A stretch of DNA of 45,003 bases from Acidiferrobacterales bacterium (GTDB lineage: Bacteria > Pseudomonadota > Gammaproteobacteria > Acidiferrobacterales > Sulfurifustaceae). The stretch covers positions 1 through 45,003 of the forward strand of contig CAKKRZ010000020.1 in NCBI GenBank assembly GCA_919902925.1. Direction: 5' to 3'. Below the pieces are notes generated by a model. That model made no database searches. It saw only the letters and a list, made by a program, of their open reading frames with translations, and was not told the DNA's origin. Positions 39,324-45,003 of this stretch are shown piece after piece. The first letter of the stretch is position 1; every line of letters starts with the position of its first letter. The position numbers and the translations under genes are program-made.

Positions 39324-39400
39324 GCGCCCGTAGCTCAGCTGGATAGAGTACCTGGCTACGAACCAGGCGGTCGGCGGTTCGACTCCGTCCGGGCGCGCCA
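39324..39400 (+). tRNA. tRNA-Arg (ACG)
   Basis: GCGCCCGTAGCTCAGCTGGATAGAGTACCTGGCTACGAACCAGGCGGTCGGCGGTTCGACTCCGTCCGGGCGCGCCA. Confidence 0.96.
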
Positions 39401-39431: not shown

Positions 39432-39743
39432 CGTCCGGAGAGACCAGACTCGCGACGCAGCTCATCTTCCGGGTCGTGTGGTATGTGAGGCCCTTATACC
39501 TACACTTGGCACGAGCCTGATTGTTGCGTCTGGTAAAGTAGGGTAGTGTGATCGCCCCTGAAGCACCCCTATATCAATCAAGATTTAATTCAGGAAGTTG
39601 TGATTCAGGGTGGATCTCGAGTTTGTTAAAAGTACCATCAAACCCTGAACCTTGGCATATTCTGTTTTGACCCAAGGATGTTCCAGATGGGCAGTGATGC
39701 AAAAAAACTGACTACTGATTTTTTATCACCTAGGAGAAAACCA

Positions 39744-40184
39744 ATGGCATACGTTACCCGTATCGGTATGGCGGTGAGCGCTGTTGCGCTTTGTTTGGTT
39801 GCGAACACAGGATTGGCTGATAATCACGATGAGAACAAGAAGGTTGGTGGCAAGGACAAGATGATGATGGGCGGTAAGGAAGGTGGCAAAGATAAGATGA
39901 TGATGGGCGCCAAAGAAGGCGGTAAGGACAAGCTCATGATGGGTGGCAAGGAAGGCGGCAAGGACAAGATGATGATGGGCGGTAAGGAAGGCGGGAAGGA
40001 CAAGATGAAAATGATGGGCAAAGATGGTGGTAAGGACAAGTTAATGATGGGCGGCAAGGAAGGCGGCAAAGACAAACTCATGATGGGTGGCAAGGAAGGT
40101 GGGAAGGACAAGCTCATGATGGGCGGCAAGGAAGGCGGTAAGGACAAGATGCAGGTTCCGGCTCCGGGAACGATGGGTCGCTAA
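39744..40184 (+). CDS. Secreted Met/Lys/Gly-rich tandem 12-aa repeat protein
   Basis: AGGAG RBS; Sec signal MAYVTRIGMAVSAVALCLVANTGLA; then eight units GGKDK(M/L)MMGGKE plus a partial unit. Confidence 0.88.
   Translation: MAYVTRIGMAVSAVALCLVANTGLADNHDENKKVGGKDKMMMGGKEGGKDKMMMGAKEGGKDKLMMGGKEGGKDKMMMGGKEGGKDKMKMMGKDGGKDKLMMGGKEGGKDKLMMGGKEGGKDKLMMGGKEGGKDKMQVPAPGTMGR
39846..40151 (+). repeat. 36-bp tandem coding repeat (8 full units + partial)
   Basis: Units start every 36 nt from 39846 (GGKDKMMMGGKE, GGKDKMMMGAKE, GGKDKLMMGGKE, GGKDKMMMGGKE, GGKDKMKMMGKD, then three GGKDKLMMGGKE). Confidence 0.95.
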
Positions 40185-40197
40185 CCAACACTGCCGG

Positions 40198-40225
40198 CCG
40201 GGGCTGGAGCCAACTCCAGCCCCGG
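40198..40225 (+). terminator. Strong GC hairpin after the repeat-protein gene (terminator/attenuator-like, no T-run)
   Basis: CCGGGGCTGGAG-CCAA-CTCCAGCCCCGG, perfect 12-bp stem. Confidence 0.65.
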
Positions 40226-42391: not shown

Positions 42392-45003
42392 ATGTTCTTT
42401 CGAATGCACCCACGCTTGCGGCTATTGGCCGCAGTTGCCAAACCGCGTTCTTCTATTATTCTGCTCCGCAAATTGATCTCTGCGGGTGTGTTGATTGCTG
42501 CGGTGCTGGTGTATTCACCATCATCGGAGGCTGATAATCGTTACACGATCTGGCGCTGGAATGGTTCTGTTGTTGAATACGTCAGTGGTACACAGGCGGA
42601 CGTACTCACTTCTGCCACGGACTGGGCCATAAAAACCGCTGAGGCAAATGTCGCTTTTCTGACGGGATGCAGTTACGCTAATTTTAGGTGCTATGTTTAC
42701 ACGATCGCGACCCCGGTAAGCTGTATATGGGGCGATGCAGGCACAATTGCGTGTTATACGTCGTATGACATACTCGATGTGAGTAGTGGTAGTGTCTACA
42801 ACATTGGTAACTCGCGCTTTACCAGCATTAGCTATTTTGGCGTTAATCATTCCCACAACAACCCCACCGTCGACAAAAACGCCGGCCCCCAGCAATGCGC
42901 CTACGGCAATCCCTGCAATCCCGCCAACGGCAACAAATACCAGGTCGAATCCGACTTCCGTGCGGGTAACGGATTACCTGCGATTACCCGTGCCTTCAAC
43001 AGCAGCTTGGTCCCCACCCAAAATTACGGCTGGGGCGTGGGTTGGTCCGGCGGTGAAATCCCGCGGCTGGAGATCGACGCCAATACCGTTACGGCCAGAA
43101 ATGGTTTAGGCCGAGGCGAAACATTCAATTGCACCGCTTCTCCCTGCGCCGGCAATGCCGATACCCACCTCACGCTGACCAAAGATGCGTCCGGTTACAC
43201 GCTGGCGATGCGCGACGGTCAGCGCGAAACCTACGACGTCAACGGTCGGCTGCTGACCCAGACGACGGCATCGGGCCAGACGACCACGTACACCTACGAT
43301 GCGGACGGTCGCCTCGCCACGATCAAAGGGCCCCACGGCCACACCCTGACTTATGCCTGGGATCCCGCGAGCGCCACGATCAAGAGCATCACGCTGCCGG
43401 ACAACACGACCATCGCCTACGGCTACACCATTGCCGGAGCCGGTCGCAACCTCACCAAGGTCACCCACCCCGACAACACCGCCCGCCTCTACCACTACGA
43501 GAACACCGCGTTCCCGAATCATTTAACTGGCATCTCCCTCGACAACGGCGCCGGCCAAGTACGTCGCCTCTCGACCTACGCCTACGACAGTACCGGCCGT
43601 GCCGTCCTCACCCAGCACGCCGACACCGGTGCGGGCCCGCAGGAGAAGTACAGCTTCACCTACAACTCCGCCACCCAGACCACCGTCACCGATGGCGCCG
43701 GCACGCAAGAGGTCCTGACCTTCGCCGAGACCCTCGGCGTCAAGAACCTCGTTTCCAAAGCCTGGCCCGACGGCAAGACCCTCACCCAGACCTTCGACGC
43801 CAACAACAACCTGACCTGCAAAAAGGATGAAGAGGACCGGGTTACCACCTACACCTACAACGCTGCCAACCAACGCACGAGCATGACCGAAGGGCAGGGC
43901 GGCACCTGCGCCGCGCCGACCGCGACGGCGGCCACCCGCACCTCCACCTATCAGTACGTCTCGACCACCCTCGACGCCCCGACGGTGATCGAATCCCCGT
44001 CCGTGGCTTCTGGTCAGGTGCGCCGCACCACGCTCACCTACGGCGACACCCGCTTCCCGACCCTGCCCACGGCCATCACCCAGAGCGGCTTCACGCCCTC
44101 GGGCTCTGCTGTCTCGCGCGCCGTCGGCCTCACCTACAACGCCTCCGGCCAGGTCGTGTCTCTGGATGGTCCGCGCACGGACGTCAACGACACCACCACC
44201 TTTACCTATTACGAATGCACCACCGGTGGCGCCTGCGGCCAGTTGAAGACCATTACCAACGCCCTGAACCAGACCACCACCTATAACACCTACGACGCCC
44301 ACGGCCGGGTCACGGAGATGACCGACCCCAATGGCCTGAAGACCGCCTACGCCTACGACTTACGAGGCCGGGTGCTCTCGGTCACCCAAACCCCCTCGGG
44401 CGGCACGGCCCGCACCACCCAGTATGCCTACGACGACAACGGCAACGTCACCGAGGTCACCGACCCCACAGGCCGCAAGCTCACCTACACCTACGACAAT
44501 GCCCAGTACCTCCGGACCGTCACCGACAACCTCGGCAACAAGGTCAGTTACAGCTACGACCTGCGCGGCAACCGCACCAAGGAAGAAGTCACCGATTCAA
44601 GTAACACCCTCGTGCGCACGATCGAGACCGCCTACGACCTCCGCAACCGGGTAAGCCAGATCAACACCGGCGGTTCCCTCACCACCCTCGTGCACGACGC
44701 CATCGGCAACCTGACCAAAACCACGCCCCCGAACCAGCAGGGCCAGGCCACGCCCAAGTCCACCATCCACACCTACGATGCCCTCAACCGCCTCACCCAG
44801 ACCCTCGACACCCTGGGCGGCACCACCACGCTCGCCCACACGCCGATCGACGCGCCCCAATCCGTCACCGCCCCGAACGCGGCCAATACCACCTACACGC
44901 ACGACGATCTCGGCCGGCGCCTCTCCGAAACCTCCCCCGACCGCGGCGCCACCGCCTACACCCACGACCCGGCCGGCAATGTCCTGACCCTCACCGACGC
45001 CCG
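42392..45003 (+). CDS. Rhs/YD-repeat protein, 3' truncated by window end
   Basis: Frame 2 is open from ATG 42392 to the window end; hydrophobic N-terminal segment; CAYGNPCNPANGNKYQVESDFRAGNGLPAITRAFNS; many YD repeats (TYTYDADGRLATIKGPHGHTLTY, YAYDDNGNVTEVTDPTGRKLTYTYDNAQYLRTVTDNLGN). Confidence 0.93.
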   Translation, partial: MFFRMHPRLRLLAAVAKPRSSIILLRKLISAGVLIAAVLVYSPSSEADNRYTIWRWNGSVVEYVSGTQADVLTSATDWAIKTAEANVAFLTGCSYANFRCYVYTIATPVSCIWGDAGTIACYTSYDILDVSSGSVYNIGNSRFTSISYFGVNHSHNNPTVDKNAGPQQCAYGNPCNPANGNKYQVESDFRAGNGLPAITRAFNSSLVPTQNYGWGVGWSGGEIPRLEIDANTVTARNGLGRGETFNCTASPCAGNADTHLTLTKDASGYTLAMRDGQRETYDVNGRLLTQTTASGQTTTYTYDADGRLATIKGPHGHTLTYAWDPASATIKSITLPDNTTIAYGYTIAGAGRNLTKVTHPDNTARLYHYENTAFPNHLTGISLDNGAGQVRRLSTYAYDSTGRAVLTQHADTGAGPQEKYSFTYNSATQTTVTDGAGTQEVLTFAETLGVKNLVSKAWPDGKTLTQTFDANNNLTCKKDEEDRVTTYTYNAANQRTSMTEGQGGTCAAPTATAATRTSTYQYVSTTLDAPTVIESPSVASGQVRRTTLTYGDTRFPTLPTAITQSGFTPSGSAVSRAVGLTYNASGQVVSLDGPRTDVNDTTTFTYYECTTGGACGQLKTITNALNQTTTYNTYDAHGRVTEMTDPNGLKTAYAYDLRGRVLSVTQTPSGGTARTTQYAYDDNGNVTEVTDPTGRKLTYTYDNAQYLRTVTDNLGNKVSYSYDLRGNRTKEEVTDSSNTLVRTIETAYDLRNRVSQINTGGSLTTLVHDAIGNLTKTTPPNQQGQATPKSTIHTYDALNRLTQTLDTLGGTTTLAHTPIDAPQSVTAPNAANTTYTHDDLGRRLSETSPDRGATAYTHDPAGNVLTLTDA

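Follow-up and report, generated by a model that had tools for sequence, protein, structure and literature searches.

A predicted exported methionine-rich repeat protein from an Acidiferrobacterales genome, a one-off among the genomes searched, with MrpX and BcrX as possible analogues

Introduction

In Brucella melitensis, the MXKDX-class protein BcrX, reported to be homologous to MrpX of Azospira, has been proposed to act as a hypochlorite sink, and its gene is cotranscribed with an MsrPQ system of which BcrX is the proposed substrate (PMC8315932). MrpX of Azospira suillum is itself presented in PMC8315932 as a hypochlorite scavenger, a Met-rich envelope peptide that is serviced by MsrPQ/YedYZ; PMC4623255 and PMC5748585 are also cited for the comparison of MXKDX proteins, MrpX and MsrPQ. 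In the SdpABC toxin operon, the secreted precursor has a C-terminal hydrophobic domain, and SdpC processing needs both SdpA and SdpB (PMC6818787). The metal-binding proteins SilE and PcoE depend on ten conserved His together with MxxH/HxxM motifs, and Ag(I) or Cu(I) is coordinated by Met in other envelope proteins (PMC5008109).

Here, we describe P0001, the product of a repeat gene in a 45,003-nucleotide stretch of DNA (the window) from an Acidiferrobacterales bacterium of the Sulfurifustaceae. P0001 is a curious orphan for which a reasonable analogue exists: the facts of its sequence are firm, and every functional step is one that we infer.

Results

The P0001 gene (39744..40184, + strand, stop codon included) encodes 146 residues, with exact coordinates, frame and stop. 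As read from the sequence, a Shine-Dalgarno AGGAG (39732..39736, +) precedes the ATG at 39744, and the first 25 codons (39744..39818, +) specify a probable Sec signal peptide that would be cleaved after LA at residue 25 and has no acceptable lipobox; P0001 is thus predicted to be exported, in line with the initial annotation. Eight 12-residue units, GGKDK(M/L)MMGGKE and variants, occupy 39846..40133 (+) and are followed by a partial ninth unit, GGKDKM (40134..40151, +), and a closing QVPAPGTMGR tail. Tandem Repeats Finder places a repeat of period 36 at 39849-40151, with 8.4 copies, 79% matches and a score of 375, in agreement with the eight near-identical units and a partial one described before, a copy number that may have been reduced by collapse in the assembly since the source bin is fragmented, with 200 contigs and 87.6% completeness.

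The mature chain of 121 residues contains 34 Gly (28%), 29 Lys (24%), 22 Met (18%), 12 Asp, 8 Glu and one His, with Gly, Lys and Glu together making up 59%, and has a pI of 9.65 and a GRAVY of -1.24. It is free of aromatics, as stated previously, and also of Cys, a claim that is right for the mature chain and wrong for the signal peptide, in which the single Cys sits. Each unit carries two or three Met, not the two to four first counted, and three Lys (four in unit 5), matching the earlier estimate of about three. MM is found at unit positions 7-8 in seven of the eight units, and position 6 is Leu in place of Met in four of the eight, which indicates that this position is held as hydrophobic and not as Met.

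The P0001 repeat is coding and conserved as protein, far beyond chance. Between units, pN is 0.082 and pS 0.674 in the coding frame, giving a pN/pS of 0.12 (0.07 when the odd unit 5 is left out), a ratio that informs on past selection and not on present function because the units are compared inside one gene. Third positions vary in 11 of the 12 codon columns, first positions in two and second positions in three. pN/pS exceeds 4.5 in every other frame but the codon-registered antisense one, whose 0.24 reflects the sense signal. Most differences between units are silent, so the repeat is of old origin and maintained at the protein level; with those sites close to saturation, recent slippage did not produce the array. 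The initial annotation had proposed both points. The same pattern argues against the neutral minisatellite that it had raised as a counter-explanation.

No match to P0001 was obtained in 96 relatives, in plasmids or in viral contigs. The 369 class genomes searched yielded no more than four matches, all weak and unrelated, in low-complexity or housekeeping stretches (a FliH-like repeat, an aconitase and an alanyl-tRNA synthetase among them), and these were rejected, as was the sole hit of exact 8-residue peptide patterns in 85,462 species, a chance match to the FtsH stretch KDKLMMGGRER. Absence of homologues, which the initial annotation had named, together with a missing transcript, as a refuting outcome, is what we found throughout these sets, although repeats of this kind are poorly detected by BLAST and short patterns, so that diverged versions may be missed. 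The repeat design appears to be a one-off among the genomes searched.

The initial annotation had likened P0001 to the MXKDX class while noting a different period and motif. This difference was upheld, since P0001 gave no match at E <= 10 to the MXKDX model (TIGR02953, cut-off 41 bits), on which a hand-written MXKDX-style sequence, used as the positive control, scored 85.4 bits; the accompanying description of the class as being of unknown function does not wholly hold, given the work on BcrX (PMC8315932). A tblastn search of plasmids for MXKDX relatives returned none, with low-complexity filtering as the likely cause.

A genuine msrPQ operon is present in the source genome, with MsrP scoring 483 bits against NF003767 (cut-off 207) and MsrQ 177 bits against NF003831 (cut-off 130). 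It lies on contig C119 and the P0001 gene on C20, so the two are not adjacent; no Met-rich gene was seen beside msrPQ on C119, and the immediate neighbours of P0001 are unrelated to Msr. An NrsF (DUF1109) anti-sigma gene was not found in the 87.6%-complete genome. Upstream of P0001, no GTAAC-type ECF16 -35 element was seen by eye. A promoter scan found nothing on the + strand.

Downstream on the same strand lie P0002 (40291..40815, +; 174 residues) and P0003 (40812..42104, +; 430 residues), the start of the latter overlapping the stop of the former. P0002 has an N-terminal hydrophobic segment and a WGFFAPEP motif, and it gave no Pfam match at E <= 10, DUF5819 (PF19136) included, and no NCBIfam match; we call it DUF5819-like by motif and gene order. 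The corresponding motif, W-x-x-[FY]-A-P-x-P, is invariant in our alignment and common, at a shared position, to P0002 and three PF19136 members. P0003 carries, by Pfam, an HTTM domain (PF05090; 61.2 bits, cut-off 27.7) and a DCC1-like thiol-disulfide oxidoreductase domain (PF04134) with the sequence CGFC. In a profile search, the HTTM domain matches the solved human vitamin K-dependent carboxylase (E 2.7e-11). K194 of P0003, invariant in eight of eight aligned HTTM proteins, aligns with the GVKK lysine pair of that enzyme, the site of its catalytic lysine.

None of the other 56 genomes in the order has P0003; its clear orthologues come from three members of the class outside the order (L013, L020 and L014). 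The HTTM-DCC proteins of L013 and L020 are 44% and 51% identical to P0003; in both genomes the orthologous pair has no small secreted gene beside it and P0001 has no match, while the L014 locus stops at a contig edge. Whether P0002 and P0003 belong to the same functional unit as P0001 is uncertain. A GC-rich hairpin of 12 bp with a CCAA loop and without a T-tract lies between P0001 and the pair (40198..40225, +), possibly as an mRNA stabiliser or partial terminator, and would permit higher expression of P0001 than of the downstream genes, whether P0001 is a methionine sink or a substrate of the pair.

The locus occupies a family-wide variable slot, whose conserved left edge is a tRNA-Arg (acg) gene (39324..39400, +) detected by ARAGORN and Rfam; in the Rfam search at the P0001 locus, a tRNA was the sole match. 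The upstream order csrA-tRNA-Ser-tRNA-Arg is kept in the family genomes with readable loci. The genes after tRNA-Arg differ between nearly all family genomes read (loci L053-L067), and the P0001 gene is absent from this site in every one of them. With a GC of 0.52-0.58 against about 0.62 for the backbone, the slot is somewhat AT-richer, and its GC3 differs modestly. Its content was perhaps acquired; an integration-site search found no repeat of the tRNA-Arg 3' end, which leaves insertion at the tRNA unproven. Directly after the HTTM-DCC gene, in the same slot, an open reading frame (42392-45003, +) runs off the end of the window. Its product, of at least 870 residues, carries a hydrophobic segment at the N-terminus, a DUF6531 domain and RHS repeats matched in eight stretches (PF05593, E 6e-52), and its C-terminus lies beyond the window.

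A small secreted protein encoded just before DUF5819 and HTTM genes was observed on a Bacillus thuringiensis and a Virgibacillus plasmid, and a Hymenobacter plasmid has a matching layout with an unannotated second gene; a Streptomyces plasmid has no small secreted gene before its HTTM locus. The Bacillus and Virgibacillus secreted proteins contain Trp/Ala/Gly-rich hydrophobic segments, which P0001 lacks. DUF5819-HTTM-DCC on the Virgibacillus plasmid (L071) is directly preceded by two secreted proteins (1877-2182 and 2430-2735) that are nearly identical, about 101 residues long and without Pfam match, each with such a segment. On the B. thuringiensis plasmid pKBT62n2 (L070, 1-5290), genes for a ThiF-family adenylyltransferase, an S8 peptidase, a small secreted protein, DUF5819 and HTTM-DCC lie close together, with a TasA-family gene near by; this group is possibly an unstudied peptide-maturation cassette.

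Discussion

We tentatively propose, as the best of the readings considered and one that could well be right without yet being probable, that P0001 protects the cell envelope as a sacrificial methionine sink, working like MrpX and BcrX. As an exported, low-complexity and highly charged protein, P0001 would reside in the envelope or periplasm and might be induced by stress; hypochlorous acid or other oxidants would convert its 22 Met to methionine sulfoxide, which would spare the other proteins of the envelope, and the MsrPQ encoded in this genome would reduce the sulfoxides back. Such a role is suggested by analogy, through a small, Met-rich protein with a predicted signal peptide in a genome with MsrPQ, and by the strong conservation of the peptide while its silent sites changed nearly to saturation. 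Against it stand the lack of a match to the MXKDX model, the Leu that replaces Met at position 6 in half of the units and the neighbours without relation to Msr. Because the genomic signature of MrpX and BcrX systems is missing here, we say that P0001 works like MrpX and stop short of classing it with them.

That P0001 is instead a secreted substrate or precursor of the DUF5819-like/HTTM-DCC pair, with its units modified or its chain processed in an SdpABC-like manner, is the main rival reading and doubtful, even though this idea, already raised in the initial annotation, draws on several observations. P0001 and the pair lie on one strand in the gene order of the B. thuringiensis and Virgibacillus plasmids, with the Hymenobacter layout alike, P0002 carries the invariant motif, the HTTM domain matches the human carboxylase with K194 on the GVKK pair, and SdpC processing offers a precedent in its need for SdpA and SdpB (PMC6818787); given the conserved lysine, an example of the chemistry would be carboxylation of Glu in each Gly/Lys/Glu unit. 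Positional support for a substrate therefore exists and is inconsistent, as the arrangement recurs in distant plasmids and not beside the two closer pairs of L013 and L020. Further points against it are that P0003 reaches only 49 bits on the SdpB model (TIGR04033, cut-off 178.4), that P0001 has neither a hydrophobic segment after the signal peptide nor a mature Cys, unlike SdpC and YitM, and that it lies about 106 nt from the pair, with a strong hairpin in between. A more specific version, in which a relative of the vitamin K carboxylase, joined to a CxxC thiol-disulfide domain, modifies Glu or Met in every unit of a dedicated multivalent substrate, yielding a new tandem-repeat, ribosomally made envelope product, is very unlikely.

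Two other explanations turn on the composition of the chain. P0001 might soak up Cu(I)/Ag(I) in the periplasm through clustered Met thioethers, like SilE and PcoE, a role that its MMM clusters at 12-residue spacing and the Met coordination of these ions in other envelope proteins would favour; however, a mature chain with a single His and without Cys weakens this reading, no MxxH/HxxM motif of the SilE/PcoE kind is present (PMC5008109) and no copper or silver genes were found among the adjacent genes examined, so that we consider it improbable. We give similarly little credence to a structural or protective polyampholyte (in a surface matrix, under stress or on desiccation), in which charge and Gly spacing would matter and Met would not. 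The high Gly+Lys+Glu content, basic pI, low GRAVY and Leu at position 6 in half of the units agree with it, whereas the MM pair held at positions 7-8 does not. A single-sequence AlphaFold model with one 10-residue strand per unit would also agree, but its mean pLDDT is 67, other models fall to 42 and Foldseek returned nothing below E 0.26; this model was set aside for its low confidence and lack of a fold match.

Should P0001 prove to be an oxidant sink, peptides with this function can evolve independently from unrelated repeats and escape MXKDX models; they would best be sought by generic criteria, namely a signal peptide, more than 15% Met and a tandem repeat rich in Lys and Asp. Should it prove to be a substrate of the HTTM-DCC pair, mass spectrometry could read bacterial HTTM chemistry directly from its regular layout.

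Among the systems compared, bufferins and other Cys-modified MNIO RiPP precursors need Cys, and this reading was rejected because mature P0001 has none; no MNIO gene was found among the adjacent genes. The locus shares its gene order, a DUF5819-like motif and an HTTM membrane protein with the SdpABC and DUF5819-HTTM cassettes, whereas P0001 is a hydrophilic repeat throughout, without their hydrophobic segment. Like SilE and PcoE, it is small and predicted to be exported, with many potential thioether ligands, but it is nearly without His. It resembles the MXKDX proteins in joining a signal peptide to a Met/Lys/Asp repeat, although with a period of 12 and not 5. Finally, although its 12-residue Gly-rich unit is not MXKDX and it adjoins neither msrPQ nor an ECF16 sigma/NrsF pair, P0001 is like MrpX and BcrX in being small, repetitive, predicted to be exported and rich in Met, Lys and Asp, in a genome that encodes MsrPQ.
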